From: Deltaproteobacteria bacterium RIFOXYA12_FULL_61_11
GTDB lineage: Bacteria > Bdellovibrionota_F > JAHFAK01 > YA12-FULL-61-11
DNA length: 25,699 nucleotides
NCBI GenBank assembly: GCA_001799195.1
Contig: MGSU01000309.1
Coordinates: forward strand, 19,032 to 44,730
Direction of reading: 5' to 3'
Within the stretch, counting starts at the first letter, position 1, and every line of letters begins with the position of its first letter. Below are positions 4,023-25,699 of this stretch, one piece after another. The translations under genes were made by a program, and so were the position numbers. The notes under the pieces were generated by a model. That model was not told the origin of the DNA. It searched no databases and saw only the letters and a program-made list of their open reading frames with translations.

Positions 4023-4035
4023 CAAAAGGAAGGCG

Positions 4036-7988: not shown

Positions 7989-7995
7989 AGAGAAC

Positions 7996-8010: not shown

Positions 8011-8038
8011 AACTCGAAGTACTGGGGAGATTGCGCGG

Positions 8039-8067
8039 TTGATAAAAGGTCCGGCTCTCCCTACAAT
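8039..8067 (+). promoter_or_regulatory. Sigma70 promoter ahead of the peptidase-like gene and motility genes
   Basis: TTGATA at 8039-8044 (5/6) is separated by exactly 17 nt from TACAAT at 8062-8067 (5/6). Transcription would start near 8074, about 27 nt before the ATG at 8101. It probably drives the secreted-protein gene, and by read-through the closely packed genes from 9603 into motA and motB. Confidence 0.75.
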
Positions 8068-8100
8068 CCTCCGGTTGTTGACGAGCGGAGCGTGAAGGGC

Positions 8101-9588: not shown

Positions 9589-9602
9589 AGAGAGGTAGTA
9601 GG

Positions 9603-9974
9603 GTGGAAAGCACGGAGCTTAAACAGGACGTGACCTTCGAGGGGCTCGCGGCCCTCTTGGCGAAACCGAGGAGGGGTTTGACCTTGCTCAGGGGTCTGGA
9701 TGAGCTGGCGCCTCTCTCTGCCGAGCCGGACGACCCCACCGCTCGCCCTGACTTCGAAGCGCGGCTCGAAGCCGAGATTCTCGGAGAGGTCGAGCGCAGG
9801 GTCGGGGAGTATCTCGACCGTCGGTTGGAACCCTTGCTCGTGGAGCGCCTGGACAGAGCTATCCGCGAGCGGCTCGAGGAATTGACGGAACTCGCCGCCG
9901 AGGAGGTCGAGCGTCTCGCCGCCGAGACCGCGGCCGAGCCGGCGAGCGCTCGAGACCAAGGTCAGGGAGACTGA
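9603..9974 (+). CDS. Small acidic helical protein preceding motA (123 aa)
   Basis: I do not recognise this family. It starts with GTG after a GAGAGGT ribosome-binding site. The protein is rich in Glu, Leu, Ala and Arg and lacks a signal peptide or membrane segment. Residues about 50-115 look like one long amphipathic helix or coiled coil (for example EILGEVERRVGEYLDRRLE and the Glu/Ala-rich segment after it). The region resembles flagellar assembly chaperones only in general character. It lies 14 nt after the secreted protein gene and 3 nt before motA, so it is certainly co-transcribed with motA. A role as a small motility accessory protein is an inference from position only. Confidence 0.65.
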   Translation: MESTELKQDVTFEGLAALLAKPRRGLTLLRGLDELAPLSAEPDDPTARPDFEARLEAEILGEVERRVGEYLDRRLEPLLVERLDRAIRERLEELTELAAEEVERLAAETAAEPASARDQGQGD

Positions 9975-9977
9975 GAC

Positions 9978-10748
9978 ATGGACATCGCAACCCTGATCGG
10001 CATCGTCGCGGCCTGGGGCCTAACGGTCATCGCCATTGCCTCCGCCCCGGGTGGAGAGGTCTTCGTCGATATCCCTTCGATGATGATCGTGGTCGGCGGC
10101 ACCATCGGCTCGACCTTGATCAACTACCCGTTGAACGTAGTTATGAGCGTGCTCAAGGTGGTCAAACAAGCCTTCCTCCAGCGCGAGACCAAGCCCGAGG
10201 AGTTGATCAAGTTCCTGGTCGAGCTGTCCAATAAAGCCCGTCGCGAGGGCGTGTTGGCCCTCGAGGGGCCGATCAAGAAGGCCAACGACAAGTTCATGCA
10301 GAACGGCTTCCAACTCGTCATTGATGGGCAGGAACCCGAGGTCACCGAGAACGTGCTCAATATCGAGATCGAGAATATCGACGAACGCCATAAACTCGGC
10401 GCAGAGCTTTTCGTCACGCTCGGTACCTTGGCTCCGGCTTATGGCATGATCGGGACCCTGATCGGTCTCGTGCAGATGCTCCAGTCCATGAACGATCCCT
10501 CAACCATCGGTCCGGCCATGGCGGTCGCCTTGATCACCACCTTCTATGGTTCCCTCATCGCCAACTGCCTCTGTCTGCCGATCGCGGGCAAGCTCAAGAC
10601 GCGATCGAAGAACGAACTCCTGGTCAAGGGGCTCATCGCCGAGGCGGTCTTGTCGATCCAGGCGGGTGACAACCCGCGCATCGTCGAGCAGAAGCTGCAT
10701 TCCTTCATCGCGCCCAAGGACCGGATCTCGGTGTTCGACAAGCGATGA
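9978..10748 (+). CDS. motA: Flagellar motor stator protein MotA (256 aa)
   Basis: MotA forms the ion-conducting stator ring around MotB and pushes on FliG. Features seen: an N-terminal membrane helix (IATLIGIVAAWGLTVIAIA), then DIPSMMIVVGGTIGSTLINY as the second helix, a long cytoplasmic loop to about residue 140, and the third and fourth helices starting TLGTLAPAYGMIGTLIGLVQ and MAVALITTFYGSLIANCL. The conserved Pro of the third helix (APAYGMIGTL) is present. Length and layout match MotA/PomA; the ion type cannot be told by eye. GGGAG precedes the ATG. The stop overlaps the first motB start by 4 nt. Confidence 0.96.
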   Translation: MDIATLIGIVAAWGLTVIAIASAPGGEVFVDIPSMMIVVGGTIGSTLINYPLNVVMSVLKVVKQAFLQRETKPEELIKFLVELSNKARREGVLALEGPIKKANDKFMQNGFQLVIDGQEPEVTENVLNIEIENIDERHKLGAELFVTLGTLAPAYGMIGTLIGLVQMLQSMNDPSTIGPAMAVALITTFYGSLIANCLCLPIAGKLKTRSKNELLVKGLIAEAVLSIQAGDNPRIVEQKLHSFIAPKDRISVFDKR

Positions 10749-11467
10749 GCAAGCGAAAACCCAAGACCGAGGACAAGACCCCCGGCGCTCCGGCCTGGAT
10801 GGCCACCTATGGCGACATGATGAGTCTCCTCTTGACCTTCTTCATCATGCTCGTCTCCATGTCGAGTCTGGACATGCAGAAGATCAAGGTCGCCCTGGGC
10901 TCGCTCAAGGGAGCGATGGGCATCATGCAGTCGGGTTTGAAATTGGTCGAAGGCAAGGAAGAAATCCTCTCTCCGCGTGACATGGTCCCGGTGAAGACCA
11001 ACTACACCTCGATCGAGATCTACTACGCGATGAAGAAGGAGTTGAAGAAAGAAACCCAGAACGTCCAAATTATCAAGAAGCGTGCCGGGTTCGTCCTGCG
11101 TATGGACGCCAACCTGGTGTTCAAACCGGGCGGTGACGAATTGCGATCGGAATCCTTCAAGATCCTCGATGCCCTGATCAACTTCTTCGAGGCCTTTCCC
11201 TTCGACATCCGCATCGAAGGGCACACCGACGACACACCACTACGCTCCGCCCGCTTCGATTCCAACTGGGATCTCTCGGTGGCCAGGGCCATTACCGTAG
11301 CCCGCTACATCCTCGAACGCAGTAACATGCCCAAGGAAAAGATCGCGGTAGCGGGGTATGGCGAAGCCAGGCCGATCGCCCCGAACGACACCCCGGAGAA
11401 CCGGGCCAAGAATCGCCGCGTCGATATTGTCCTGGCCACGGCCGAGGGCATCCTGACCATCGACTGA
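10745..11467 (+). CDS. motB: Flagellar motor stator protein MotB, first copy (240 aa)
   Basis: MotB anchors the stator to peptidoglycan and carries the ion-binding Asp. A basic N-terminal tail is followed by the membrane helix beginning at TYGDMMSLLLTFFIMLVSM, with the essential Asp at D24. A linker of about 80 residues precedes a C-terminal OmpA-like peptidoglycan-binding domain (about residues 110-232). This contains IRIEGHTDDTPL (His at 160), NWDLSVARA and AGYGEARPIAPND, ending in NRRVDIVL. All family landmarks are present. The ATGA overlap with motA indicates translational coupling, normal for a MotA4-MotB2 pair. A second motB follows 9 nt downstream. Confidence 0.95.
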   Translation: MSKRKPKTEDKTPGAPAWMATYGDMMSLLLTFFIMLVSMSSLDMQKIKVALGSLKGAMGIMQSGLKLVEGKEEILSPRDMVPVKTNYTSIEIYYAMKKELKKETQNVQIIKKRAGFVLRMDANLVFKPGGDELRSESFKILDALINFFEAFPFDIRIEGHTDDTPLRSARFDSNWDLSVARAITVARYILERSNMPKEKIAVAGYGEARPIAPNDTPENRAKNRRVDIVLATAEGILTID

Positions 11468-11476
11468 GGGTACGAG

Positions 11477-12283
11477 GTGGCCAAAGAACGCAAGACATCC
11501 GAGGACGTCGGAGCACCCGAAGCACCGGGCTGGATCTGCACCTACGGCGACATGATGAGTCTCCTGCTCTGCTTTTTCATCATGCTCTCTGCCATGTCCT
11601 CCCTCGACGCCCAGAAGCTCAAGTACACCCTCGGTTCGCTCAAGGGCTCCCTGGGCATGCTCAAGGCCGGCGACCGGTGTTCGGTGATGAAGAAGGACAT
11701 CGTCATGACCTTCGATTTCGTCAGGGCCGTGGACGTGACCATCGAAAAGGTGGTCAAGAAGGTCCGCTCGAAGAAGAAGAAGGTCGAGTACGTCGAGAAG
11801 CTGAAAATGCACACCGACGAGAGGGGGATCGTGTTCAGGGTCGAGGACGCCGTGCTCTTTGATCCGGGTTTATCGAATCTGAAAACAAGTGGTTATCTTG
11901 AATTGGACAAGATCATCTCGATCGTCGAAGACCTGCCGAATGCGATCCGCATCGAGGGACACTCCGACGCGACCCCGCATGCCAAGGGAGAGGAGGACTT
12001 CAACTGGAAGCTCTCTACTCTGCGCGCGGTCAATGTGCTCAAATATATGATATTCCAAGGGAGGATAAACCCGGAACGGGTATCGGCCATGGGTTTTGGG
12101 GACCAGCGCCCGATTGCTCCGAACGATACCGCGGCGTGGCGCAAGCTCAACCGCAGGGTCGAGGTGATCATCCTCTTCAAGGATTTCGTCGAGGCCAAGG
12201 AAGAACGTGCCGAGCTGGAGCGCAAGCTGCTCGAGCAGGAGGAGGAAGAAGAGGCCGAAGAGGCGCCCGAGTCCGGGAAGTGA
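11477..12283 (+). CDS. MotB paralogue, second copy (268 aa)
   Basis: This second MotB-like protein starts with GTG after GAGGG at 11466-11470. The plug/membrane helix is preserved (CTYGDMMSLLLCFFIMLSAM), with the ion-binding Asp at D25. The OmpA-like domain has IRIEGHSDATPH, NWKLSTLRAVNVLKYMI, MGFGDQRPIAPND and LNRRVEVII. It differs from the first copy by a strongly basic linker (VVKKVRSKKKKVEYVEK), two Cys in or beside the membrane helix, and a Glu-rich C-terminal tail of about 35 residues that the first copy lacks. With only one motA in the window, the two MotB proteins could form mixed or alternative stators, or this copy could be a structural accessory. Confidence 0.92.
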   Translation: MAKERKTSEDVGAPEAPGWICTYGDMMSLLLCFFIMLSAMSSLDAQKLKYTLGSLKGSLGMLKAGDRCSVMKKDIVMTFDFVRAVDVTIEKVVKKVRSKKKKVEYVEKLKMHTDERGIVFRVEDAVLFDPGLSNLKTSGYLELDKIISIVEDLPNAIRIEGHSDATPHAKGEEDFNWKLSTLRAVNVLKYMIFQGRINPERVSAMGFGDQRPIAPNDTAAWRKLNRRVEVIILFKDFVEAKEERAELERKLLEQEEEEEAEEAPESGK

Positions 12284-12317
12284 TGCCGCCGAGGGCGCTA
12301 AAAGGGTTCGACCCTGC

Positions 12318-12346
12318 TTGTCATTGTCGCGGCCTTTCGGTAGCAT
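12318..12346 (+). promoter_or_regulatory. Sigma70-like promoter ahead of fliL
   Basis: TTGTCA at 12318-12323 (5/6) lies 17 nt from TAGCAT at 12341-12346 (4/6). The spacing is ideal, and transcription would start about 26 nt before fliL. Just upstream, AGGGT (12303-12307) and ACCCT (12311-12315) can form a 5-bp hairpin after the second motB, without a T-run. This suggests the switch and export genes have their own internal promoter. Confidence 0.55.
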
Positions 12347-12378
12347 GAGCCGCTTGACCGTTGCTTGAGGAGTACCTG

Positions 12379-12885
12379 ATGGCCGAAGAGAAAACCGCGC
12401 CGCCGCCGGCGGGCAACAAGAAGAAGAAAATCATCATCATCGCCATCCTCGCGGTTGTGGTGCTGGCCGGGGTCGGGGGAGTGCTCGCCTATCTCCAGTA
12501 CCAGATGAAGCAATCCGAGACCGAGGCTACCGACAAGCTCAAGGAGGCCGAGCAGGCGACAGAGAAAGATGCCGCCTTCGCCGAGGTCGGCGAGATGCTC
12601 AAGTTCGACGACTTCATCCTCAACCTCAACACCCCCGGGGATTCCCGTTATCTAAAAATAGGGATCCACTTCGAATTGACCGAGGGGCTGACCGCGGAAG
12701 TCGAGAAGAAGAAACCCGTGCTCCAGGACATCCTGGTTTCCATCATCAGCAGCAAGTCCTACGATGAGATCAAGGACGCCCGCGGTAAAGAGCTGCTCAA
12801 GGAAGAGTTGGTCACCGCGCTCAACCGGGTGCTGACCACCGGACGTATCCGCCGCATCTACTTCACCGAGTTCGTGGTACAGTGA
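12379..12885 (+). CDS. fliL: Flagellar basal body-associated protein FliL (168 aa)
   Basis: FliL is a single-pass inner-membrane protein that surrounds and supports the stator. A short Lys-rich cytoplasmic tail precedes the membrane helix at about residues 16-40 (IIIIAILAVVVLAGVGGVLA). A polar linker and the periplasmic FliL domain follow, with FDDFILNLNTPGDSRYLKI, a KKPVLQDILVSIISSKSYDE segment and the end RIRRIYFTEFVVQ. These match the family core, including the terminal phenylalanine-rich strand. The ATG at 12379 is chosen because GAGGAG at 12367-12372 sits 6 nt upstream. The TTG at 12361 lacks such a site. Length is typical. Confidence 0.95.
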   Translation: MAEEKTAPPPAGNKKKKIIIIAILAVVVLAGVGGVLAYLQYQMKQSETEATDKLKEAEQATEKDAAFAEVGEMLKFDDFILNLNTPGDSRYLKIGIHFELTEGLTAEVEKKKPVLQDILVSIISSKSYDEIKDARGKELLKEELVTALNRVLTTGRIRRIYFTEFVVQ

Positions 12886-12918
12886 ACGTTCTATCCGGCC
12901 TGTCGTGAGGAAGGTGTC

Positions 12919-13923
12919 ATGAGCCAGATCCTGTCCCAGAACGAGGTCGATGCCCTGCTCGCCGCGGTCACCGACGGCAGGTTGGAGACCACCGATGCGG
13001 CGAAACCCGAGACCGAGGAGGTCATTAACCTCGACTACATCAAGTTCGACTTCACCCGCAAGCGGCGCTTCGTTAAGGGTGACATGCCCACCGCCGACTT
13101 GATTTTCATGCTCTACGCGAAAGAGCTCGAGAACTTCCTCACCAATCAGGCCCAGCAACCGGTCACGGTCAACTTCGTCAGCAACGAGATCATCAACTAC
13201 AACGAGTATGTCAATCGATTGCCGGTCCCGATCGGGATGTACCTCATCGACATACCCTCGGCCCTGTGCAAGGGCATCATGTCCGTCGAGACCCAGGTCA
13301 TCTATCACCTCCTGAACATCTTCTTCGGAGGGCGGGCCAATCTCAACGTGGTCGAGGACAAGAACCTCACCGAGATAGAGTTGCAGTTCACCCAGAAGAT
13401 CGTCCAGGGCAACATCACCAAGCTCGAGGAGATCTGGAACCGCTTCACCAGTATCGAGATGAAGATCATCAAGGTCGAGACCGACCCGAATTACATCTCT
13501 GTCTTCCCCAGCGACGAATTGATCCTGCTCTCGACCTGGGAACTCGATTTCAACGTGGTGCGCGGCAATCTCAACCTCGTCCTCTCGCTCAAGGCAATCG
13601 AGACGCTCGAAGACACCAACATTTCCCTCAAGCGCAAGCCAAGCCGCGATGCGATCATCCAGGAGCGGATGCATAAGCATCTCAAGGCGCTCGACCTGGA
13701 GGTCACCGTCGATCTTGGTCAGGCAGCCTTCAGTGTGCGGGAGCTCCTCGGGCTGCAGGTCGGGGATGTCATTCCTATCGAGACCGACAAAGACGAGAAG
13801 CTCCTGCTCAACATCGAGGGTAACCCCAAGTTCTTGGTCAATCCCGGCGCCTTCAAGGGGAAGAAAGCGGTAAAAATCCACAATCCGATTAAAATCTTCA
13901 CCGCAGAACACGAACAGCGATGA
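12919..13923 (+). CDS. fliM: Flagellar motor switch protein FliM (334 aa)
   Basis: FliM forms the middle of the C-ring and binds phospho-CheY. The N-terminal CheY-binding motif is present as ILSQNEVDALLAAV (residues about 4-17). The central domain (about 45-230) has YNEYVNRLPVPIGMYLIDIP, the FFGG turn and LTEIELQFTQKIVQGN. The C-terminal SpoA domain (about 245-315) includes LDLEVTVDLGQAAFSVRELL and IPIETDKDEKLLLNI. Length is typical. A strong GAGGAAGG ribosome-binding site precedes the ATG, 33 nt after fliL. The preserved CheY-binding segment implies chemotaxis genes elsewhere in the genome. Confidence 0.96.
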   Translation: MSQILSQNEVDALLAAVTDGRLETTDAAKPETEEVINLDYIKFDFTRKRRFVKGDMPTADLIFMLYAKELENFLTNQAQQPVTVNFVSNEIINYNEYVNRLPVPIGMYLIDIPSALCKGIMSVETQVIYHLLNIFFGGRANLNVVEDKNLTEIELQFTQKIVQGNITKLEEIWNRFTSIEMKIIKVETDPNYISVFPSDELILLSTWELDFNVVRGNLNLVLSLKAIETLEDTNISLKRKPSRDAIIQERMHKHLKALDLEVTVDLGQAAFSVRELLGLQVGDVIPIETDKDEKLLLNIEGNPKFLVNPGAFKGKKAVKIHNPIKIFTAEHEQR

Positions 13924-14045
13924 CCGGGAGGCCCGTACTCGAGGATTGTCACGATTTTGACGGAGCGGTGGAGAAGTACTGACTAGGACGGTCGTAGGAG
14001 CGATTTCTTGTGCAGTAATTCAAATGGTTGTGGACCGATGAGGAT

Positions 14046-14061
14046 TGGCGCGCAACGTGCT
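14046..14061 (+). promoter_or_regulatory. Sigma54-like promoter ahead of fliN
   Basis: TGGCGCGCAACGTGCT has GG at 14047-14048 and GC at 14059-14060 with exactly 10 nt between. Only two of the defined consensus positions differ. Transcription would start near 14072, about 20 nt before fliN. It lies in a 168-nt fliM-fliN gap, unusually wide for this packed operon. The gap has no other evident gene. Confidence 0.6.
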
Positions 14062-14091
14062 AACCACCCCCACGGTCCTCGGGAGTGAACG

Positions 14092-14403
14092 ATGAGCCAC
14101 AACGACCTAGAGAATGCCTTGATCGGCGGCGATTCGAAGCAGAACGCCAACCTCGATTTCATCCTCGACATCCCGTTGAAGATGACCATCGAGTTCGGCA
14201 GGACGAAGATGCTCATCAACGAGTTGCTCCAACTCGGCATCGGTTCGATCATCGAGTTGGACAAGACGGTTGATGAGCCTCTCGAACTGCTGGTCAATGG
14301 CAAGCTCGTGGCGCGTGGCGAGGTGGTGGTGATGAACGACAAACTGGCCATCAAGATCACCGACATCATCACGCCCAAGGAACGTATCGAGAGTCTGAAG
14401 TAA
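14092..14403 (+). CDS. fliN: Flagellar motor switch protein FliN (103 aa)
   Basis: FliN forms the base of the C-ring and docks the export ATPase complex through FliH. The protein is essentially one SpoA domain: LDFILDIPLKMTIEFGRTKM, LLQLGIGSIIELDKTVDEPL, ELLVNGKLVARGEVVVMND and KLAIKITDIITPKERIESL. This is the complete canonical pattern. The 20-residue N-terminal extension is polar. It is the short FliN form, not the longer FliY type with an extra phosphatase domain. GGGAGTGA lies 5 nt upstream of the ATG. Expression probably uses both read-through and the sigma54-like promoter at 14046. Confidence 0.95.
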   Translation: MSHNDLENALIGGDSKQNANLDFILDIPLKMTIEFGRTKMLINELLQLGIGSIIELDKTVDEPLELLVNGKLVARGEVVVMNDKLAIKITDIITPKERIESLK

Positions 14404-14432
14404 CCACAGTTCCGACAACCCGGAGCACGAGC

Positions 14433-15566
14433 ATGAAGACGATCGCTAAGGTGAGTTGCGCCCTCTCGTTGGCCCTTGCAACCCTTTGTCATGCAGGGCA
14501 AACGACCTCTTTCCAAGAACTCTCGGTCAAGACCGAGGAGCAGCGCTTCTCAGTCGAATTACAGTTTTCCAAGGCTCTTGGGTATGATGCCCGGCCGTTC
14601 TCGAGCTATCGCAACTACCTTCATGTGGAGTTTCCCGAAACTCGGGTCAAGGGCGGCACCCGTTCCTTCCCGGTGCAGGACGACTCCCTGGTCGAGGAAA
14701 TCCTGCTGGTCCAGTTCTCTCCCAGTTTGATGCGCCTGCGGTTAGTCCTCAAACAGGATGCAGCGGCCTTGCTCGAGCACAGCTCCCTGGTCATCGAAGG
14801 CGGAGTAGCCCGGTTGGTCGTGGATCGGCCGCCCGCCGAAACGCAAGCCGCGGCGATCGACGCTCCAACTACGAAGACGGTCGAACCTGCGTTGTTGCCG
14901 GTGCTCACTCCCGAGGAGGGGGACGAATTCGTCCTCGAGAGCTTGACCCAGCCGCGGGTCGAAGGGCAAGCCCAAGAGGTCGCCCATGCTGCTCAATCCG
15001 ACCCCAAACCGGTGGTCGAACCCGAGGACGAATTCATCACCGCTGGGGAGCAAGGGAGCTTTCTCGCGGGGAAGGACCTGGACGGAGTCAAAGCCTTGTT
15101 CGGCGGACGCGTGCTGACCTCTCTGTTCCTGGTCGTGGCCTTGATCCTCGGGCTGGGTTTCGCCTACCGTAAGATCTCCGCCCGGCTCGGGTTGCCCTTC
15201 AAGCAGGCAGGGGGGCTGGGCATCAAGGTTGTGGCCAACCAATTCATCGCGCCGAAGAAGAGCCTCGCCCTCGTCCACATCGGCACGCAGTACTTCCTGC
15301 TCGGAGTTGCCGCCGATGGCATTTCGTTGATCTCCGAGGTCGGTCAAACCGAAGCCGGAGAGGAGCGGAACGCTGCAACGACTGCCTTGCCGAGCAGTCC
15401 CGACGACAAGACCACGTTCAATGAACAACTCAAACGCAGCCTGTTCCAACAGCGCAAGACCGGTGCACCGACCGAGAGCAAGGCCGGGCGCGAACGGCTG
15501 ATGGAGATGGCGAAGTTGTCCGAATTGATCCGGGACAAGGTCAGCATGCTCGGTGTGCAGCGCTGA
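14433..15566 (+). CDS. fliO: FliO-like flagellar protein with a long N-terminal periplasmic domain (377 aa)
   Basis: FliO helps assemble the FliP ring of the export gate. Here residues 1-22 are a signal peptide (MKTIAKVSCALSLALATLCH). Residues about 30-130 form a beta-rich domain reminiscent of an AMIN-type envelope-binding domain (RFSVELQFSKALGYDARPF, then YLHVEFPETRVKGG and later LVIEGGVARLVVDRPP). An acidic linker leads to a membrane helix at about 226-246 (LTSLFLVVALILGLGFAYR). The FliO core follows (IKVVANQFIAPKKSLALVHI, then GTQYFLLGVAADGISLISEV). The total is well above the usual FliO length of about 100-220. The AMIN comparison is a fold-level impression. Position between fliN and fliP supports the identity. 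Confidence 0.85.
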   Translation: MKTIAKVSCALSLALATLCHAGQTTSFQELSVKTEEQRFSVELQFSKALGYDARPFSSYRNYLHVEFPETRVKGGTRSFPVQDDSLVEEILLVQFSPSLMRLRLVLKQDAAALLEHSSLVIEGGVARLVVDRPPAETQAAAIDAPTTKTVEPALLPVLTPEEGDEFVLESLTQPRVEGQAQEVAHAAQSDPKPVVEPEDEFITAGEQGSFLAGKDLDGVKALFGGRVLTSLFLVVALILGLGFAYRKISARLGLPFKQAGGLGIKVVANQFIAPKKSLALVHIGTQYFLLGVAADGISLISEVGQTEAGEERNAATTALPSSPDDKTTFNEQLKRSLFQQRKTGAPTESKAGRERLMEMAKLSELIRDKVSMLGVQR

Positions 15567-15651
15567 CGGTTCGCTCGACCACCTCTCGGCACCGAGGTGC
15601 GCTAAGGCACCCACTTCTCGAGTTCATGGTCCCTCACGCGAAGGCACACTC

Positions 15652-16404
15652 ATGAGAAGCTCGCGCTGGTTTGTCTATCTGTTCCTGGCGTTCATACTGG
15701 TTGGACCTGTGGTGGAAGCCCAGACCATCACCATTCCCAGGCTCAGCCTGGATTTCGAGCAGAGCGATAAACCAAAGGAAATCGTTTCGGCGATCAAGAT
15801 CGTCATTGCCATGACGCTGCTCGCCCTGGCTCCGTCCCTCCTGTTGGCCATGACGTCCTTCACCAGGTTGGTCATCGTCCTCTCGCTGCTACGTCAAGCT
15901 ATCGGAGTCCACCAAGCCCCGCCCAATCAGGTGGTGGTCGGCTTGGCTATCTTCCTCACCTTCTTCATCATGCAGCCCTACCTCAACGAGATCAACGAGA
16001 AGGCACTGCAGCCCTACCTGGCCGAGAAGATCAGCCAAGACCAGGCCCTCGATGGGGCGGTAAAACCCTTGCGCACCTTCATGCTCAAGCAGACCCGAAA
16101 GAAGGACCTGGCCATGTTCCTGTCCCTGTCCAAGGCCCCGAGGCCTCAGACCCCGGACGATATTTCCCTGGTGAGCCTGGTCCCGGCTTTCATCATCAGC
16201 GAACTCAAATCGGCCTTCCAGATGGGATTCATGATCTACATTCCCTTCCTGGTCATCGACATGGTGGTAGCCACCATCCTGATGGCCATGGGCATGATGG
16301 TTTTGCCTCCGATCCTGATCTCGTTACCGTTCAAGTTGATGCTGTTCGTGATGGTGGATGGCTGGAGTCTCATGATGCACTCGGTAATGAAGAGCTTCAA
16401 CTGA
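15652..16404 (+). CDS. fliP: Flagellar export gate protein FliP (250 aa)
   Basis: FliP is the main ring component of the flagellar type III export gate. The N-terminus is a cleavable-type signal (SSRWFVYLFLAFILVGPVVE). The core has TLLALAPSLLLAMTSFTRLV, then IVLSLLRQAIGVHQAPPNQV and GLAIFLTFFIMQPYL, a charged periplasmic loop, and the C-terminal helices LVPAFIISELKSAFQMGFMI, IPFLVIDMVVATILMAMGMM and PPILISLPFKLMLFVMVDGW. These are the hallmark FliP sequences. The ATG at 15652 has GAAGG 7 nt upstream. An earlier in-frame ATG would overlap fliO and lacks family support. Confidence 0.97.
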   Translation: MRSSRWFVYLFLAFILVGPVVEAQTITIPRLSLDFEQSDKPKEIVSAIKIVIAMTLLALAPSLLLAMTSFTRLVIVLSLLRQAIGVHQAPPNQVVVGLAIFLTFFIMQPYLNEINEKALQPYLAEKISQDQALDGAVKPLRTFMLKQTRKKDLAMFLSLSKAPRPQTPDDISLVSLVPAFIISELKSAFQMGFMIYIPFLVIDMVVATILMAMGMMVLPPILISLPFKLMLFVMVDGWSLMMHSVMKSFN

Positions 16405-16414
16405 GGTAGCCGCC

Positions 16415-16684
16415 ATGACCGAAGAATATATCATGGGCCTGATGGCCGGAGCGTTGCGCACGGCACTGTTCGTCGGGGCTCCGTGCCTGCTCGCCGGTTT
16501 CGTGGTCGGCATGATCATCTCCCTGTTCCAGGCGGTGACCCAGATCCATGAGGCCACGTTGACCTTCATTCCCAAGATCGTGGCCATCTTCCTGACCCTG
16601 CTCTGGTTCGGGCCGAGGATCCTTGCCTCGATGATCGATTTCACCCGGCAGATGATCATCTCGATCCCTACCGTCGTGCAGTAA
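16415..16684 (+). CDS. fliQ: Flagellar export gate protein FliQ (89 aa)
   Basis: FliQ is a two-helix membrane protein that packs around the FliP-FliR ring. The sequence has the two hydrophobic helices of the family: GALRTALFVGAPCLLAGFVV joined to GMIISLFQAVTQIHEATLTF, then IPKIVAIFLTLLWFGPRILA and a short tail. The conserved QAVTQIHEATLTFIPK stretch between the helices is intact and diagnostic. The length of 89 residues is exactly typical. A GAGG site precedes the ATG, 10 nt after fliP, and fliR follows after 9 nt. Confidence 0.97.
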   Translation: MTEEYIMGLMAGALRTALFVGAPCLLAGFVVGMIISLFQAVTQIHEATLTFIPKIVAIFLTLLWFGPRILASMIDFTRQMIISIPTVVQ

Positions 16685-16693
16685 GGACGGGCG

Positions 16694-17485
16694 ATGTTCA
16701 CGTTGCCCTTCAGTTATCAGGATGTGCAGTTGTTCCTGCTGATCGCGGCCAGGGTCAGCTCCTTCTTGATGCTCTTCCCGGTGCTCGGCAGCCCGGAGAT
16801 TCCGAACCGCATACGGATCCTCCTTGCGCTGGCCTTTACCCTGGTGTTGTTCCAATTGCGCCGGGCAGGCTGGGTCGGGGTGTCTCAGGATCTCGGAGTT
16901 CTGGCCTATTTTGCTGGCCTCGAAGTGGTAAAAGGCTTGTTGCTCGGTCTCCTCGGGCGTTTCATCATGTCCGCGATCAACCTCGCGACACAGCTCTTCG
17001 GGCAGAACATGGGTCTGGCCATGGCCAACATGTTCGATCCCGTGTCGCAACAACAGGTCTCGGTTGTGCAACGATTGTATGTGCTGTTCTACGTCGTCAT
17101 CTTCCTCCAACTCGATATCCACCACGATGTGTTGCGCATCCTGGCCGTCTCCTTCGATACTATGCCGATAGGTCCGATGAGCCTGAGCGAGGAGACCTTT
17201 AACTTCGTCGTAGCCCAGGGAACCAAAATGTTCGTGGTCGCCCTGAAGATCAGCGCTCCGATCCTGGTGACCGTAACCCTGTCCAACTTGGTGCTCGGTA
17301 TCATCGTGCGCACCGCGCCGCAGATGAACATCTACTTCGCAGTCGGCATGTTCGGGAACATCGTCCTCGGTATGTTGATCCTGTTGTTCAGTCTGCCGTT
17401 CTACCTGCAACTCTTCCGTGACCTTGCGTGGGACATCAACCGCTCCGTGGAGCACTTGGTGCGGCTGCTCGGTGGGGTGGCCTGA
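16694..17485 (+). CDS. fliR: Flagellar export gate protein FliR (263 aa)
   Basis: FliR is the single-copy subunit that completes the FliP5-FliQ4-FliR1 gate. The family pattern is present: FLLIAARVSSFLMLFPVLGS, then PEIPNRIRILLALAFTLVLF, AGLEVVKGLLLGLLGRFIMS, FGQNMGLAMANMFDP, a hydrophobic VVIFLQLDIHHDVL segment, and the conserved RTAPQMNIYFAVGMF near the C-terminus. Length is typical. AAGGACGGG precedes the ATG. In most genomes flhB and flhA follow fliR; here the next gene is a giant lipoprotein, so they must lie elsewhere. Confidence 0.96.
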   Translation: MFTLPFSYQDVQLFLLIAARVSSFLMLFPVLGSPEIPNRIRILLALAFTLVLFQLRRAGWVGVSQDLGVLAYFAGLEVVKGLLLGLLGRFIMSAINLATQLFGQNMGLAMANMFDPVSQQQVSVVQRLYVLFYVVIFLQLDIHHDVLRILAVSFDTMPIGPMSLSEETFNFVVAQGTKMFVVALKISAPILVTVTLSNLVLGIIVRTAPQMNIYFAVGMFGNIVLGMLILLFSLPFYLQLFRDLAWDINRSVEHLVRLLGGVA

Positions 17486-17586: not shown

Positions 17587-20500
17587 ATGACGCGCAGGAC
17601 TTGGCTACTCGGAGGAATGCTTCTTGTGGCGCTGGTTCTGGGATGTTCCCGGGACGACTCGGACTACACGCCCATCGACATCGACCGCGTCCCCAACTCC
17701 ACCGGCGAACTGGACCTGAACGTGGTCTACGAGCAGGGGAAACCCCGCCTCTCGTGGACGTTGCCCAAGAACCTCGCCTTCCGTTACAGTAAGATAGCGG
17801 TATTCCGCGCAGAATTCGAAGCCCTGGACGATGCGGCTGCAGAACCTTCGGCCGCGGCGCTGCCTGCTGCTGCGCTGCCTGCTGCTGCTCTCCCTGCTGC
17901 AGCGCTGCCCTCGAGCGGTATCCCAGGTGGAACATCCGTCACCGGGGTACGGGCGTTCAAGTACAGTGCCCAAGACTATTCCGAAGAGCGCCATACCTAT
18001 GAAGAAATAGCCAGGATTTCCGGTAGTGCTACGACCTATCTCGATGCGAAGACCGAGGAGAACCTCGTCTATCTCTATCGGATCATGGCCATACGCGGGG
18101 GATCGTTCCTGGTTTCCCGGCTGACCAACCGCTCGAGTACGGACAGGGACGGAGACGGCCGTAATGACGACCGCGATGTTTTCCCCGACAATCCCTCGGA
18201 ATGGCGCGATCTCGACCGGGACGGCGTAGGAGATGCTGCCGATCTCGATGATGATGGCGACGGGGTGCCCGATTTCGTCGAAGCCCGGGAGAGCCTGGAT
18301 CCTTCCAACCCCGACACCGATGGTGATGGGATTCCCGATGCAAAGGATTTGGCCGCCAACGAGGGGAAATTCGCCGTGTATTCCCTCTCGCCGAGCCGTG
18401 GGTTCGTTACCGGGGGGATCAGCGTCGAGGTGCGAGGTGAGAACTTCCCGGCCGATCTGAGCGTTCGTTTCGGCACGAAGAGGGCCACGATCACGGCTGT
18501 AGAAGCGGGACGGTGCACGGTCACGGTGCCGCAAGGCGAGGCGGGGACGGTCGATGTTGTCCTGAGTCGCGCGAGCGAACCCTTGGCGGTGCTCCGAGGA
18601 GCCTTCCGGTATTTCATCCCCGGGAAGTTGCCGGCCCTCTTCCTGGTCGAAGGCGGCAAGGTGGCAACCGCACCGATACTTTCCCTAGGACAACAGGGGG
18701 TTCGGCTGTGTCTTGTGGTCGAGAACAGTGCCGAGACGCCGGTGCGGGTCTACGATTGGGATGGGAATGGCGAGCCGGACCTCCATGCCGTGGATTTCCG
18801 CCCGGTGTTCACCCAGGGGGAAGCCGGAGTGAACCAAGACTATTCGGTGCGTCTCGAACGCGGGGTGGGAGCCTCGAATTGCCTGGTACCTCCCTACAGC
18901 GAGGCCGTCCCGAATATCGAAGTCAATCCTCTGACGGTGTTGCCTGGAAATAAGGCGTTGTATTCGTTCCTTTTTAATATTTCACCCGAAGCAGGCGGAG
19001 TAAGCCTGCAGGAGACCGGCAGCGTCGAGGTCGGGGTAGGAGCGAGGACCCTGCTCCTCGACCAGGGCAATCGCATGGTACTCGACGAGGTACTCTCGCC
19101 GGCGACCTTCACGTTGACCGAGCTCTCCGAGCTCGACTACGAGCTCTTCCTGGCCGGCGTCGAGGTTCGCGAGGACGGGTACGTGCTCTCCCCGAGTGTC
19201 GCCGGAGAGGGTTTGGTGGTGGTGGAGGGGCAACCTTTCGCCGTGGTGCTCGAGGCCCAGAACAAAGGGTTCGCCCCGTTCCGAGACCTGACCTTCGAGG
19301 AACTGGTGCTCAGCGGGAGCGGGGAGTTCGGGAAGCTCGGGGTGTTGGAAAGGCCGGATCCCGAGATCCTCGATCTCCCGGGCAAGTCCAAGCACGCTTT
19401 CACGTTCATCTTCCAGGCCGGACCAGGGGGGCGAGGAAGTTACACCTTCAGTTCGAACCTCTCGGGCAGGACTTCGGCAGGGGAAGAGCTTGCTCTGCCC
19501 GACCGGACCAGCGGAGAGCTGCAGGTCTTGACTCCTGCCCGTCTCGTGGTCACCGAGGCGCAGATGCCTGCTGCCCTGAACGTGGGCCAGAGCGGCGGCG
19601 AGGTCGTCCTGAGCGTCTCCAACTTCGGCGAATCCGCTGCCTCGCTCACCGGGCTGACCCTGCACCTCTTTGATCAAGAACACAATTTCATCCCCGATGC
19701 TCCCGTCCGCTTCTTAGCCGCGGGGGCCAATGCCAAGAGTCTGATAGGAGGGGGCAGCGTGCAGCTCCGGGGTACCCTGGGTTTGAAGGCTCAGGCCCAA
19801 CCGGGAGCCTACCTCCTCGCCCCACAGGTCGCAGGCACGGACAGCCACTCGAACGTCGGCATCAGCAGTGAGGTGACCGATGCTGCCACTCCCTTCCGTA
19901 TCCTGGCCCCGGCCCGTATCGCGGTCAGGGCGGTCAGACCCTCGACGAGCACGATCTCGCAGGGCAGGAAGAACTTCGCCATTGAGGTCGAGGTCGAGAA
20001 TCTGGGCGATGCTGCCGCGTTGCTCGTCGAACTGGTCCCGACCATGGTCAATCAGAGCGGCACTGACGCCGGCCAGGCCTTTCTCGGCAGGATCGCCGAG
20101 AACAGTCCGACGTCGGTCGCCGGCAAGCAGCAGTCGGTCTTCCTGTTGGAGGTAGATGTCGCCGCGACGGCGCCGGCCGGTACCTACCAGGTGACGGCTC
20201 GCGCTCGCTGCCGGGACGTGAACGACGGGTCTCTTAGCGAACACGATTCGGCTCTCGACGAGGTGAGTGGGACCTTTTCCGTGATTCGCCCTGCCGAACT
20301 CGAGGTGACGGACGCCACGCTCAGTACCGTGGTGGTCAGTCAGGGCCAGAGCGGCCTGATCCTGTCTTTCACCGGGACCAACCTCGGTTCCGAGGATATT
20401 CTCCTCTCTCCGGTCGAGGCGTCGTTCGCCCTCGGTACTGTCGACCATTCCTATGACTACCTGCTGTTCCCCGATCCCACCAATCCGGTGCTCCTCGAGG

Positions 20501-23500
20501 CCGGGGAGAGCGCCCAGTTCAAAGCGACCCTGGGAGTCCTCGAAGACGCCACTCCGGGGCAGGTCCAGGTGTTTCCCCGGCTGCTCGGAGCAGGGGCCAT
20601 TTCCGGACAGCAGATCGCCGACACGCCCCCGACAGCGCTCGTGCTCAGCGTCAAGCAACGAGCCACCCTCTCGTGTAACCTGCTCTTCGCTCGCAGCCCG
20701 CTGACCGAGGGCCAGGATGTAGCCCTGACCGTCCGGGTCACGAACTCCGGCGAGGCTTCGGCGCTCGCCGCCGAGCTCGACCCCCTGCAACTCGTGCCCA
20801 CCGGCACCGGCCGGGTAACGTACCTCTCCGGGCCGTTGCCGCTCTCGGCCGCAATACCGGGCGGTACCTCGAAGGATTTTGCCTATGTGTATTCCACGGG
20901 CCAGGGGTCGACGGGCTCCCTGAATTTCGCGGTGCGGGCCGAGGCGATCGATCAATATTCCCAGCTCGCCGTGGCCTCGGAGAGCGCCACTGCAGCTCTC
21001 GAACTCCAGACCCAAGCCCGGGTCGAGGTTCTCGCGGTCAACGCAGCCCAAACCCTTGTCAGCAGAGGTCAGAATACCGCGGTCACGCTGAGGGTCAGGA
21101 ATCTCGGAACGGCTGCCCTGCGGTTGGACGAGTCCATGCTCGGCCTCAGCTTCACCGATCCGGCCCAGAACGACCGAGCTGCCGATTATCAGGTCCAACC
21201 AGCCTTTTCGTCGGAAGCCCTGCTCCTCCCAGGGCTCGGGAGCGTTGACCTTCCCTTCACCGTGAGCGTCGTGAGTACCGCGACCGTGGACACGGTCATC
21301 ACCGTGGATGGCAGGGCCGGTGGGAAAGACCTCAACAACGATGCAGTCACGAGCGATAGCACTGCCACGGTCAAGGCCGCGTGGGAGGTGAAAACCCCGG
21401 CCCGGATCGTCCTCGACAGCCTCCAGGTCGGTCCTCAGTCGGTCAATCAGGGTCAGACTGGCCTTCCCGTGGCCTTGAACGTGAGCAACCCGGGCGGTGC
21501 TCCCCTCGAGCTCTCCGCGGCAGGACTCGTGTTGCGCGATGCGAGCAACTCCGATGTTTCCAGCCAGTTCACGGTCGCACCCTCATTCAACAACCCGGAA
21601 CTCATTCCCGGCGCGGGGAGTGTGACCCTGAGCTTCACCCTCGGCGTTTCCTCCACGGCCTCTTCGGGCTTGGTGACGCTCGATGCGGTCGTGACAGGGA
21701 AAGACCAGCTCTCGGGTAACACCATGACAGCGAACGGAGCCACGACCAAAGATACCATCCTGGTCCAGACCCCGGCCCGGTTGCAGTCGACCTTGACGGC
21801 AACGCCGACCCCTCTCTCCGAGGGCCAGACCCTCACCGTACAACATCTCGTCACTAATCTTGGTGAGGCCACGGCTAGGACGGTGTTGCCCGGAACCCCG
21901 ATCCTCTCCGGCCAGGGACATGCGACCCTGGTCAGCGGACCTCTTCCGGCTTCAGCCGATCTCGCCGGAGGGCAGGCCCAAGTCTTCTCGTACACCTATG
22001 CGACCACGAGCGGTAGCGCTGGCACTCTGACCTTCTCGGCCGTGGCCAACGGCACCGATGCCAACGTGGCAACGGCGGTGAGCAGTCAAACGGCCTCGTC
22101 CGGGGTGGTGACCATCCAGAGCCCCGCGAAGTTGGAGGTGCTCGCGGTTCTTTCGACCAAGGCAAAACTGTCCTTGGGGCAACGCAATGTCCCGGTGACG
22201 GTATCGGTCCGGAACCCCGGCCAGGCCTCGGTCGCGATCACCAGCGCGGGGTTGACCCTGCGCGATCGCAACGGCAACGATGTCGCAGCCGAGTACCAGC
22301 TCACGACGGTGCAGGCTCCGACGAGCCTTGCCGGTGGTCTCTCGACGACCTACGACTATACCCTCACCGTCGATGCAGCGGCCACGCTTGGCGACGTCAT
22401 CCTGGATTTCGGCATCAGGGGCCAGGATCAGAACAGCGGCCTCGGAGTGCAGGATCTCGCCGCAGACAGTCCGCTCACGGTCACGGTCCAGACTCCGGCT
22501 GCTTTGACAGTACAGGCAGTCTCGACCGCGGTGGAGACCATCAGCCAAGGCCAACAGAACGTCCAGGTCCAGATGACCGTGGTCAACGGAGGCCAGGCCG
22601 GCGCGACGCTCAATGCACTGAGCCTCTCCTTCACCAAGGACGGCGGTTCGGTCGGAACGGACTACACGGTCGTGCCCGCTCCTTCCAACCCGACGACTAT
22701 CGCCGGTCTCCAGACTTCGACCTTCATCTTCAGCGTGAGTTGCGGTGCCACGGCTACCCGCGGCGGTGTGGTGTTCGATGGTTCCGTGAGCGGCGCCGAC
22801 GGCAATTCCGGCAGCCCGCTTACCGCCAGCGGCGCCCTGAATCCCGACAGTTGGACGGTTCAGAGTCCTGCGGTCCTAGAGGTGGTGAGTGTTGCCTCGA
22901 ACTACGACCAGGCTGTCCGGAGGCAACGGGGGCTCGATCTGCTGGTGACCGCGCGCAATACCGGGGAGGCCGGAGCCACGCTCGGAGCGGTGACCCTGTT
23001 CATAGGTGCTCTCGGGGGGCAGAACCGCCTCGCCGAATACACGGTCACGGCCGCTCCGGGCAATCCCACCGGTCTTGCCGGGGGCGTCTCGGCAGTCTTC
23101 TCCTATTCCCTCGAGGTGAGCGCGAACGCGACCCTCGGCCCCATGACTCTGGATGCCACTCTCTCCGGCAGCGATGTCAACAGCGGGCTTGCGAAGTCCG
23201 ATACCGACGGTGCGACGGCAAAAGATCTCTGGACCGTGGTGCGTCCGGCCGTCCTCGAGGGTTCCTTCGCCCTATCCCGTACGAGGATCTCCGAGGGCCA
23301 GGACCTGAGCGTCACCTTCAGCGTGCGGAATAACGGCGATATCGACGCGCTCGCGGTCACACCCGCGTCCTTGACCCTCAACGGTGTCGCAACCCCGGTC
23401 TCCGGACCCATCCCCGCAAGTGCCACCATCGTCGCGGGCGCCGAGGTCGCGTTCGTCTACCAGTTCCTGACCGGACCCGGTTCGGCGGGCAATCTGGATT

Positions 23501-25699
23501 TCTCGGGTACTGCCACCGGTACAGACCAAGTCCTCGCAACGACAGTCACCTCGACCCCCTTGACCTCTGGACCGGTCACGGTCCAGACCCCGGCCAACCT
23601 CCGTCTGCTCTCCGTCTCCGCCGTTCCATCGACGATCACCAAGGTGAGCCGAGGGCAACAGGAGGTCTTGCTGCGCGCCGTGGTCCAGAACAGCGGGCAG
23701 GCCACGGCGACGATCGGGTCGGTCGAGCTCGATTTCACCTCCTCGGCGCTGGTGGACGTGACCTCGGAGTACGAGCTCACCAAGATCGGCCACGCCTCGA
23801 GTATCCCCGGTGGGAGCAGCGCGAGCTTCGATTTCCGGGTCGAGGTTGGTTCGGCGGCTACCCTCGGGAACATCACGGTCGATGCCACCGCGACCGGGAC
23901 CGATGCCAACTGGAGCAGCCGGGCGCTTGCCGATGACGGCGCGGACACGCCCGACCTGCTCGAGGTCCAGACACCTCCCCAGGTCGAACTCCAGACGGTG
24001 AGCACGGTCCAAACTCAGGTCAGCCAGGGCCAACAGGGACTAGCCGTGGCCGTGACCGCCGCCAACCTAGGTGGAGCCACGGTCAATGTCGGCACCGTCG
24101 CCCTGACCTTCCAGGGGAGCATCGATCGCACCGCGGATTACCTCGTCACGCCGTCCCCGGCCAACCCCGCTTCCATCGTCAGTGGTCAGACGGCGAACTT
24201 CGCGTTCACCGTGACCGTCAAAGCCGCGGCCGCGGCCGAGGTGATCGTCCTCGACGGGACCTTCGTCGGTACGGATGCGAACTCGGGAACCCAGGTGCGT
24301 GATGATGACGGGGCTTCGACGACCGATGCTTGGACCGTGGTCCGGCCGGCGCTCTTGCGTCTCGGGACGGTGAACGCGCTGAAGAGCGCGGTCGTCCGTG
24401 CTGAACAAGGGCTGGTGGTCAACGTCGGCATCACCAACGAGGGCGGTGCGACCGCCAACCTCGGCGCGTCCTCGCTGCGCTTCTCCCAGAGCGGCAACGA
24501 CCTCGGCACCGAGTACACGGTCACTCCTTCCGGCGCCAATCCCGGCACGCTCGGATCGGGTCAGGCCGCGACCCTGGTCTTCACCGTCGATGTCGCTTCC
24601 GCCGCAACCCTGGGCAACGTGGCGCTCGATGCCGCCATCGTCGGTACCGACGCCAATTCGGGCGCAGCCCTGAGCGACCCTGCCGCCGAGACCACCGATA
24701 CCTGGACCGTGCGGAGTCCCGCCATCCTGGTCGCCACCGCTGGAGTAGACCGGTTAGTGCTCTCGGAAGGCCAGACCTTGTCCGTTACTGTGACCGTGAA
24801 CAACACCGGGCAGACGGATGCCCTCCTGGTGAACCCCGACCCGACCCTGACCTTGACCGGCAGCGGCAGTGCCACGCTCGGCGGACCTCCCGGCAATACC
24901 GGAGTGACCATCCCGGCCGGCGGGAGCGCTGCCTTCGTGTATGCGTACTCGACCGATGGTACCAGCGCTGGCAACCTGGTCTTCTCGGGCAAAGTCGAGG
25001 GGGTCAACGATGTGCTCGGCACGGCCGTGGTCTCCACGACGGCCTCCAGCCCAACGGTCATGATCCAGGAGCCCGCGGGGCTCGGGATCCTCAGCGTGAC
25101 CGCTTCGCCGCAACGGGTCAGCCAGGGCCAAGGCGGGATCACGGTCAACGCCGTGATTGCCAACCCCGGTCAGGCCCGGGCCCTGCTCTCCACGGCGCAG
25201 CTCGCTTTCACCGGCAGCATCGATCGCGGTGGCGATTACGTGGTTACACCCGCCCCGGCCAACCCGACCAGCATCAACGGAGGAGGTCAGGTCACCCTCG
25301 CCTACACCGTGGCGGTGAGGACCACGGCCGCGGTTGGGGAGGCCATCGCCCTCGATGCGGCGGTCACCGGCAGTGACGAGAATTCCGGCGCGGTACTCCA
25401 GGATAGCTCCGCTGCCACTCCGGATCAATGGTTGGTCGAGGTCCCTGCCGCGATCGAGGTAGTCTCGGTGAGCGTCGTCCCCGGTACGGTCAGCCAAGGC
25501 CAGAGCGGGGTACCCCTCTCGGTGGCGGTGCGGAACAACGGTCAGGCCGTGCTCGACGGTCTCGCCGTACAGGTCGGTTTTGTCGACGCACAGGGATTGG
25601 GAGTCACCTCGCAGTATGTCCTGACCCCGGTCCCGGGCAATCCGACCAGCGTCGCCGGCGGTGGCAGCGCGACTCTCTCCTATACCATGACCGTCGGCG
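17587..25699 (+). CDS. Giant multi-repeat surface lipoprotein, truncated by window end (over 2700 aa)
   Basis: One frame stays open from 17587 to the right edge (2704 codons, no stop), so the C-terminus lies outside. A lipoprotein signal ends in LVLGC with the Cys at residue 20 and Ser at +2, suggesting outer-membrane sorting and probably surface exposure. An AAALP microrepeat is at residues about 89-108. Asp-rich, thrombospondin-3-like calcium-binding repeats (such as DRDGDG, DLDDDGDGVPD, DTDGDGIPD) are at about 186-254. An IPT/TIG-like Ig domain (SLSPSRGFVTGGISVEVRG) is at about 262-345. Then come less regular beta domains and, from 19531, at least 17 Ig/CARDB-like repeats. In-frame GTG 17569, with GAGGAG 5 nt upstream, is a strong alternative start; ATG 17587 gives the shortest classic lipoprotein signal. 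An adhesin or fibre-like stalk role is an inference. Confidence 0.9.
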   Translation, partial: MTRRTWLLGGMLLVALVLGCSRDDSDYTPIDIDRVPNSTGELDLNVVYEQGKPRLSWTLPKNLAFRYSKIAVFRAEFEALDDAAAEPSAAALPAAALPAAALPAAALPSSGIPGGTSVTGVRAFKYSAQDYSEERHTYEEIARISGSATTYLDAKTEENLVYLYRIMAIRGGSFLVSRLTNRSSTDRDGDGRNDDRDVFPDNPSEWRDLDRDGVGDAADLDDDGDGVPDFVEARESLDPSNPDTDGDGIPDAKDLAANEGKFAVYSLSPSRGFVTGGISVEVRGENFPADLSVRFGTKRATITAVEAGRCTVTVPQGEAGTVDVVLSRASEPLAVLRGAFRYFIPGKLPALFLVEGGKVATAPILSLGQQGVRLCLVVENSAETPVRVYDWDGNGEPDLHAVDFRPVFTQGEAGVNQDYSVRLERGVGASNCLVPPYSEAVPNIEVNPLTVLPGNKALYSFLFNISPEAGGVSLQETGSVEVGVGARTLLLDQGNRMVLDEVLSPATFTLTELSELDYELFLAGVEVREDGYVLSPSVAGEGLVVVEGQPFAVVLEAQNKGFAPFRDLTFEELVLSGSGEFGKLGVLERPDPEILDLPGKSKHAFTFIFQAGPGGRGSYTFSSNLSGRTSAGEELALPDRTSGELQVLTPARLVVTEAQMPAALNVGQSGGEVVLSVSNFGESAASLTGLTLHLFDQEHNFIPDAPVRFLAAGANAKSLIGGGSVQLRGTLGLKAQAQPGAYLLAPQVAGTDSHSNVGISSEVTDAATPFRILAPARIAVRAVRPSTSTISQGRKNFAIEVEVENLGDAAALLVELVPTMVNQSGTDAGQAFLGRIAENSPTSVAGKQQSVFLLEVDVAATAPAGTYQVTARARCRDVNDGSLSEHDSALDEVSGTFSVIRPAELEVTDATLSTVVVSQGQSGLILSFTGTNLGSEDILLSPVEASFALGTVDHSYDYLLFPDPTNPVLLEAGESAQFKATLGVLEDATPGQVQVFPRLLGAGAISGQQIADTPPTALVLSVKQRATLSCNLLFARSPLTEGQDVALTVRVTNSGEASALAAELDPLQLVPTGTGRVTYLSGPLPLSAAIPGGTSKDFAYVYSTGQGSTGSLNFAVRAEAIDQYSQLAVASESATAALELQTQARVEVLAVNAAQTLVSRGQNTAVTLRVRNLGTAALRLDESMLGLSFTDPAQNDRAADYQVQPAFSSEALLLPGLGSVDLPFTVSVVSTATVDTVITVDGRAGGKDLNNDAVTSDSTATVKAAWEVKTPARIVLDSLQVGPQSVNQGQTGLPVALNVSNPGGAPLELSAAGLVLRDASNSDVSSQFTVAPSFNNPELIPGAGSVTLSFTLGVSSTASSGLVTLDAVVTGKDQLSGNTMTANGATTKDTILVQTPARLQSTLTATPTPLSEGQTLTVQHLVTNLGEATARTVLPGTPILSGQGHATLVSGPLPASADLAGGQAQVFSYTYATTSGSAGTLTFSAVANGTDANVATAVSSQTASSGVVTIQSPAKLEVLAVLSTKAKLSLGQRNVPVTVSVRNPGQASVAITSAGLTLRDRNGNDVAAEYQLTTVQAPTSLAGGLSTTYDYTLTVDAAATLGDVILDFGIRGQDQNSGLGVQDLAADSPLTVTVQTPAALTVQAVSTAVETISQGQQNVQVQMTVVNGGQAGATLNALSLSFTKDGGSVGTDYTVVPAPSNPTTIAGLQTSTFIFSVSCGATATRGGVVFDGSVSGADGNSGSPLTASGALNPDSWTVQSPAVLEVVSVASNYDQAVRRQRGLDLLVTARNTGEAGATLGAVTLFIGALGGQNRLAEYTVTAAPGNPTGLAGGVSAVFSYSLEVSANATLGPMTLDATLSGSDVNSGLAKSDTDGATAKDLWTVVRPAVLEGSFALSRTRISEGQDLSVTFSVRNNGDIDALAVTPASLTLNGVATPVSGPIPASATIVAGAEVAFVYQFLTGPGSAGNLDFSGTATGTDQVLATTVTSTPLTSGPVTVQTPANLRLLSVSAVPSTITKVSRGQQEVLLRAVVQNSGQATATIGSVELDFTSSALVDVTSEYELTKIGHASSIPGGSSASFDFRVEVGSAATLGNITVDATATGTDANWSSRALADDGADTPDLLEVQTPPQVELQTVSTVQTQVSQGQQGLAVAVTAANLGGATVNVGTVALTFQGSIDRTADYLVTPSPANPASIVSGQTANFAFTVTVKAAAAAEVIVLDGTFVGTDANSGTQVRDDDGASTTDAWTVVRPALLRLGTVNALKSAVVRAEQGLVVNVGITNEGGATANLGASSLRFSQSGNDLGTEYTVTPSGANPGTLGSGQAATLVFTVDVASAATLGNVALDAAIVGTDANSGAALSDPAAETTDTWTVRSPAILVATAGVDRLVLSEGQTLSVTVTVNNTGQTDALLVNPDPTLTLTGSGSATLGGPPGNTGVTIPAGGSAAFVYAYSTDGTSAGNLVFSGKVEGVNDVLGTAVVSTTASSPTVMIQEPAGLGILSVTASPQRVSQGQGGITVNAVIANPGQARALLSTAQLAFTGSIDRGGDYVVTPAPANPTSINGGGQVTLAYTVAVRTTAAVGEAIALDAAVTGSDENSGAVLQDSSAATPDQWLVEVPAAIEVVSVSVVPGTVSQGQSGVPLSVAVRNNGQAVLDGLAVQVGFVDAQGLGVTSQYVLTPVPGNPTSVAGGGSATLSYTMTVG
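17851..17910 (+). repeat. Four tandem 15-nt units encoding AAALP
   Basis: Four consecutive 15-nt units each encode Ala-Ala-Ala-Leu-Pro, with small synonymous differences among units. The array sits inside the giant lipoprotein in a flexible linker between the N-terminal region and the calcium-binding repeats. Because the unit is a multiple of three, copy number could change without breaking the frame. Confidence 0.9.
19531..25699 (+). repeat. At least 17 tandem Ig/CARDB-like domain repeats, about 372 nt each
   Basis: Each unit opens with a TPARLEV-like segment, then a SQGQ or SEGQ motif and NxG, and ends near GTDxNSG. Units begin at 19531, 19906, 20287, 20656, 21010, 21394, 21769, 22120, 22492, 22864, 23242, 23587, 23971, 24343, 24715, 25069 and 25441, the last cut by the window end. 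Most are 369-384 nt. Four shorter units (345-354 nt, starting 20656, 21769, 23242, 24715) form a second class with SEGQ or TEGQ, a Gly-Pro turn and GSAGxLxF. Units are strongly diverged at DNA level. Resemblance to CARDB-type Ig domains is a pattern-level judgement. Confidence 0.88.

Follow-up and report, generated by a model that had tools for sequence, protein, structure and literature searches.

Giant lipoprotein gene at the window end

The window, a stretch of 25,699 nt, corresponds to positions 19,032-44,730 (forward strand) of contig MGSU01000309.1 (C309) from Deltaproteobacteria bacterium RIFOXYA12_FULL_61_11 (assembly GCA_001799195.1). Its last third is occupied by a single open reading frame encoding the N-terminal part of a giant lipoprotein. 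The gene comes directly after fliR. Upstream of it, window 4036-17485 carries yidC, jag and mnmE, followed by the flagellar genes motA, two consecutive motB-like genes, fliL, fliM, fliO, fliP and fliR. The features of the lipoprotein gene within the window are listed below; A and B denote the two classes of Ig-like repeat units described in the next section.

17587-25699, + strand: giant lipoprotein coding sequence, N-terminal 2704 aa; frame open to the window end, with an in-frame 28-nt overlap with contig C172
17587-17646, + strand: signal peptide with lipobox LVLGC, from the translation; Cys codon at 17644-17646
18130-18360, + strand: thrombospondin type 3-like repeats of the calcium type, DxDxDG (Pfam TSP_3 at 23.2 bits, below its cutoff of 25)
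18376-18576, + strand: IPT/TIG domain (Pfam PF01833, E 1.3e-9, passes the cutoff)
19183-19533, + strand: unit 2, B, diverged (B model 33.5 bits, A model 5.0 bits; B side of the wide tree)
19534-20658, + strand: units 3-5, A, diverged (profile parsing, A/B scores)
20659-21012, + strand: unit 6, B, TEGQ (reading frame, A/B scores, tree)
21013-21771, + strand: units 7-8, A, just two between the flanking B units (profile parsing, A/B scores)
21772-22122, + strand: unit 9, B, SEGQ (reading frame, A/B scores, tree)
22123-23244, + strand: units 10-12, A (profile parsing, A/B scores)
23245-23592, + strand: unit 13, B, SEGQ (reading frame, scores, tree; Ig-like fold modelled with confidence in A-B-A)
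23593-24717, + strand: units 14-16, A (profile parsing, A/B scores)
24718-25071, + strand: unit 17, B, SEGQ (reading frame, A/B scores, tree)
25072-25699, + strand: unit 18 in full and unit 19 up to its residue 85, A (profile parsing; remainder of unit 19 on C172:29-147)

The protein starts with MTRRTWLLGGMLLVALVLGC, a signal peptide with lipobox and Cys as expected of a secreted lipoprotein, and its N-terminal Cys would thus be lipidated. The thrombospondin type 3-like stretch alone gave matches to the cohesion proteins MtsC/MtsD, at 20.8 and 17.6 bits against NCBIfam equivalog cutoffs of 350 and 800, respectively, and an identity with these proteins was rejected. A 15-nt tandem repeat in the N-terminal part (window 17857-17909) codes for AALPA-type repeats and is the sole tandem DNA repeat found by TRF in the gene.

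The window stops at a gap in the assembly, where the scaffold has 55 N followed by sequence with early stops in the lipoprotein frame. C172 begins with exactly the 28 bases with which the window closes, and these occur at no other site in the genome, even when three mismatches are allowed. C172 keeps the lipoprotein frame open for 2737 codons. The window end matched positions 1-85 of the A profile, and the start of C172 matched positions 77-125; the joined sequence thus contains one whole A unit (unit 19). In a profile search of the whole genome, A-unit matches were confined to C309 and C172. Because of the exact and unique overlap, the shared frame, the completed unit 19 and the restriction of all A units to these two contigs, we take C172 to be the continuation of the gene, on the basis of overlap, frame and uniqueness rather than of reads. 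The window part and C172 positions 1-8214 together encode 5432 aa. The sequence past the 55 N was rejected as a continuation in favour of C172, as it is unrelated and has stops in the frame.

The segment beyond the 55 N (L007 8332-10061, i.e. C309:44731-46460) offers no open frame for the lipoprotein gene and conflicts with the 28-nt overlap; the scaffolding of C309 past this point is probably an error. Downstream of the lipoprotein gene, C172 carries an open frame that encodes a staphylococcal nuclease-like domain (L005 8367-10391). The C-terminal region of the lipoprotein is FG-GAP-like, judged by a weak FG-GAP_3 match. A search of 98 genomes for orthologues of the N- and C-terminal parts returned partial matches of TSP3, TIG or Ig type only and no close relative.

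Two classes of units in the domain array

A profile built from the repeats resolved an array of 37 units of about 125 residues, numbered 2 to 38, in the order B-AAA-B-AA-B-AAA-B-AAA-B-A×18-B-AA (31 A and 6 B units). The B units comprise 116-118 aa and the A units mostly 123-128 aa, in agreement with the short and long length classes that had been proposed from the window sequence. In leave-one-out profile scoring, units 6, 9, 13 and 17 favoured the B model by 56-78 bits, while the remaining units from 3 to 35 favoured the A model by 47-122 bits. The two sets of scores did not overlap. Units 2 and 36 favoured the B model as well, by 28 and 15 bits, respectively.

The earlier note on this window had listed short B units at 20656, 21769, 23242 and 24715. 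All four are real: the frame opens TEGQ/SEGQ units at these positions, which the HMM parsing places one codon later. The list missed unit 2, which starts at 19183 and precedes the first unit of the list by 1476 nt.

In a maximum likelihood tree, a branch with a support of 95/100 has the B units 6, 9, 13, 17 and 36, and no others, on one of its sides; the joining of unit 2 to them was not rejected (AU p = 0.33). The B units thus belong together. Identities among the B units were 47.8% for units 13 and 17, 45.2% for units 9 and 13, 42.6% for units 9 and 17, and 36.2% for units 6 and 9; neighbours along the array were most alike.

Spacing of the B units

The last three B units in the window had been reported to lie 1473 nt apart, and the SEGQ motifs at 21817, 23290 and 24763 show exactly this spacing. 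The equality arises because unequal unit lengths compensate each other (117+124+124+126 aa compared to 116+127+124+124 aa) and does not reflect exact copying of a block. TRF found no domain-sized tandem repeat in the DNA of the array. Compensating domain lengths can thus give an old repeat protein an exact nucleotide period, and such a period can end abruptly.

From the four-domain spacing a further B unit had been predicted near 26188. This position corresponds to C172:517, where an A unit is found instead: unit 21 (SQGQ), at C172:532-909, follows A unit 20. The lack of a B-type unit there had been named beforehand as evidence against the proposal. The four-domain period is also not a feature of the whole array, since it stops after unit 17. 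Units 18-35, nearly all of them beyond the window, are 18 A units in a row, and the first B unit after unit 17 is unit 36 at C172:6145.

If whole B-A-A-A blocks had been duplicated, A units were expected to group by their position in the block. The tree requires 4, 4 and 3 changes to accommodate such a grouping, about as many as in shuffled assignments. With blocks taken after units 9, 13 and 17, same-position A pairs were 38.0% identical and different-position pairs 37.7%, and 42% of permutations gave a value as high. Given that no B unit lies at 26188 and that the A units show no positional likeness, the B spacing alone is no evidence of copied B-A-A-A blocks.

The placement of the B units was compared with random placement of six B units among 37. 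At least three gaps of exactly four were obtained in 0.9% of the draws, and four leading gaps that were all 3-4 in 0.17%; both criteria were chosen post hoc.

Similarity at a lag of four units

Identity by lag, when left uncorrected, was raised at lags 3 and 4 for all A units. In the lag test, unit-specific divergence was therefore removed first. Units 18-35 then proved more similar than expected at lag 4 (p 1e-4 to 2e-4 when scored by BLOSUM62 and 0.003-0.006 when scored by identity) and, to a lesser extent, at lag 3 (p about 0.01-0.06). The effect at lag 4 is small, about 2% identity. It was present in strand, loop, odd and even columns and persisted without the ten strongest columns. As four domains had been proposed from other data, the result for units 18-35 comes close to an independent test.

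Among A units 7-20 a lag-4 excess was absent (p = 0.30), in a comparison with few pairs and little power; a weak excess was observed at lags 1 and 2. Identical codons gave no lag-4 excess (p = 0.51), at synonymous sites that are probably saturated, which leaves room for old duplications.

Because the signal is spread over many columns, descent is a better explanation for it than selection acting on a few surface sites, and the lack of a codon excess implies that any four-domain duplication is old. The lag-4 signal is thus consistent with old four-domain duplications. Selection for a periodic arrangement could still be its source, as the effect is small and lacks a codon signal. Growth by duplication of four-domain blocks, as the earlier note had suggested, hence retains a faint trace in units 18-35 and finds none in units 7-20 or in the grouping of the A units.

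Fold and family membership

The whole protein matched the CARDB family (PF07705) at 46.6 bits, the cutoff being 22.7. Single units gave matches at E < 0.1 for 7 of 25 A units and 3 of 6 B units, one B unit reaching 16.8 bits, which is below the cutoff. CARDB is an Ig-fold domain of the E-set type that occurs in large secreted proteins of prokaryotes; it has been described as related to cell adhesion in bacteria, and large archaeal secreted proteins carry several copies (PMC8416519). The whole-protein score, the weak matches of several A and B units and the predicted Ig-like sandwich connect the array to this family, although many single units are not significant alone and A and B are distinct subfamilies. 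Pfam DUF4832 and DUF4352 gave matches as well, in places that overlap with Ig-like units.

Structures of both classes, as called for in the earlier note, were predicted with AlphaFold2. The A-A-A model had a mean pLDDT of 97.4 and the A-B-A model one of 96.7, and all units were modelled as nearly all-strand Ig-like sandwiches. A and B are thus predicted to share an Ig-like fold. The long strand formed by A residues 37-48 is replaced in B by two short strands (residues 161-172 of the A-B-A model).

Foldseek/VIA-align returned the Ig stalks of bacterial adhesins, namely FdeC (4e9l, Z 10.8), an ice-binding adhesin region (5irb, Z 9.8) and PrgB (8beg, E 2e-11). Their fold is alike, but their identity to the units is just 9-17%. 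Since unrelated Ig chains (integrin alpha, TRAP-beta) score equally, these matches show the fold only. In a PDB sequence search, the Q-beta coat protein was matched with E 9e-5 for one fusion and with 0.1 or more otherwise, which was judged to be chance; a baseplate hub matched B with E 0.044.

Relatives and origin of the two classes

Contigs of public genomes were scanned for related loci with a profile built from six units. Arrays composed purely of A units were found in Planctomycetota (L043, 32 units) and Wallbacteria (L045, 25 units), arrays purely of B units at four loci (L047, L050, L131 and L132), and mixed arrays at four others (L122, L123, L124 and L126). The only same-class relative in the comparison, G001, encodes a protein with a lipobox, units arranged A-A-B-A-B-A×6 and, at the C-terminus, an FG-GAP/ASPIC region; its B units are two domains apart. 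The order in G137 is A-A-A-B-A-A-A. In G119, three paralogues each have a pair of B-like units at a distance of 341-347 aa.

In a tree of 119 units from several lineages, A and B fall on two sides of a branch with an SH-aLRT support of 97; the alignment has few columns and many forks are open. All six B units of the lipoprotein are on the B side, amid B units of other lineages. They are therefore not a local offshoot of the protein's own A units. A and B appear in this tree as two old CARDB-like families that split before the lipoprotein existed.

Origin of the B spacing

The lipobox, the TSP3-type repeats, the TIG domain, the CARDB-like stalk and the FG-GAP-like end fit a surface stalk or adhesin. 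The earlier description as a giant surface lipoprotein agrees with these features, and display at the surface is presumed from them. The protein is a well-resolved yet largely ordinary giant repeat surface protein of a kind already known. It illustrates how giant bacterial surface stalks can be assembled from two old Ig-like families.

We consider it likely that the protein is a lipid-anchored surface stalk grown via old multi-domain duplications. The anchored N-terminus would bear the calcium-type repeats and the TIG domain, and the stalk of 37 tandem CARDB-like Ig domains would hold the C-terminal FG-GAP-like region off the cell. Old unequal duplications, each spanning a few domains and some of them four, would have enlarged the array and been followed by long divergence. 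The B units may stem from the founding array or may have been gained by recombination between arrays, and would have been passed on in the part close to the N-terminus, where their near-regular spacing would be a trace of this growth history.

Copying of whole B-A-A-A blocks, with the positional signal among the A units later lost through divergence or gene conversion, would explain why B units adjacent along the array are most alike. It would also accommodate the further four-domain interval of 1476 nt added by unit 2 at 19183 and the lag-4 trace in the A-only stretch. We regard it as unlikely, because 26188 has no B unit and 18 straight A units follow the last B unit of the window, because the A units do not group by position, and because TRF found no domain-size DNA repeat and the codons no lag-4 signal. 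The equal spacing, moreover, is built from unequal unit lengths. A chance period, in which a formerly mixed array has left behind scattered B units that by luck lie 3-4 domains apart, is comparably doubtful. Only five intervals are available, one of them three and one 19 domains long, and B positions vary among the relatives; however, three gaps of four occurred in just 0.9% of random draws, and units 18-35 independently give a significant lag-4 signal.

Selection for a periodic fibre is improbable. Here the B units would be evenly spaced special modules, such as a kink or a ligand- or partner-binding site, as has been suggested for the super-repeats of titin. The A-band of titin has super-repeats of 7 and 11 domains in which Ig and FnIII domains are mixed; their order is kept from copy to copy many times over, and domains that share a position are alike, most clearly in the central super-repeats (PMC10665226). 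The lipoprotein resembles titin in having two related beta-sandwich classes at near-regular intervals in a giant chain. It differs in that its B rhythm ends after five B units and its A units have no positional likeness. The domain families differ too, and no homology is claimed. A spacing of 3-4 domains that is rarer than under random placement (0.2-0.9%) and the recurrent distance in the three G119 paralogues agree with a selected fibre, but the rhythm spans less than half of the stalk, the B units of G001 are two domains apart, pure-A and pure-B stalks of similar length are known, and A and B are predicted to share one Ig-like fold. Less probable still, and a speculation at best, is a bacterial counterpart of the mixed titin super-repeats, in which B units would be functional marks every ~3-4 domains in the anchor-proximal stalk while the A-only stretch would keep the four-domain geometry.

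Internal periods in related arrays

The proposed growth of the stalk by old multi-domain duplications has parallels elsewhere. Domain repeats often expand by several domains at once, as found by Bjorklund et al. (2006), who used the autocorrelation of internal similarity (PMC1553488). The lags of four in the lipoprotein, three in L045 and two in L047 and L046 are of this kind, although the signal in the lipoprotein is faint and old. At 35-40% identity, internal similarity can thus still reveal that duplication proceeded by two, three or four domains at a time.

The frame starting at 1286 of L045 encodes 3698 residues with 25 A-type units. It has a strong period of three, with 42-46% identity at lags 3 and 6 compared to about 32%, which is clearer than the higher-order repeat of the window protein. 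For L045, L047 and L046, the lag controls were a simpler test of the same kind. L047 and L046, from the groundwater genome Hainich-H43-bin172-1, are giant B-type arrays with a two-domain period, which is backed at the codon level too. Units in L047 are up to 95.7% identical, and this near-identity points to recent block duplication there.
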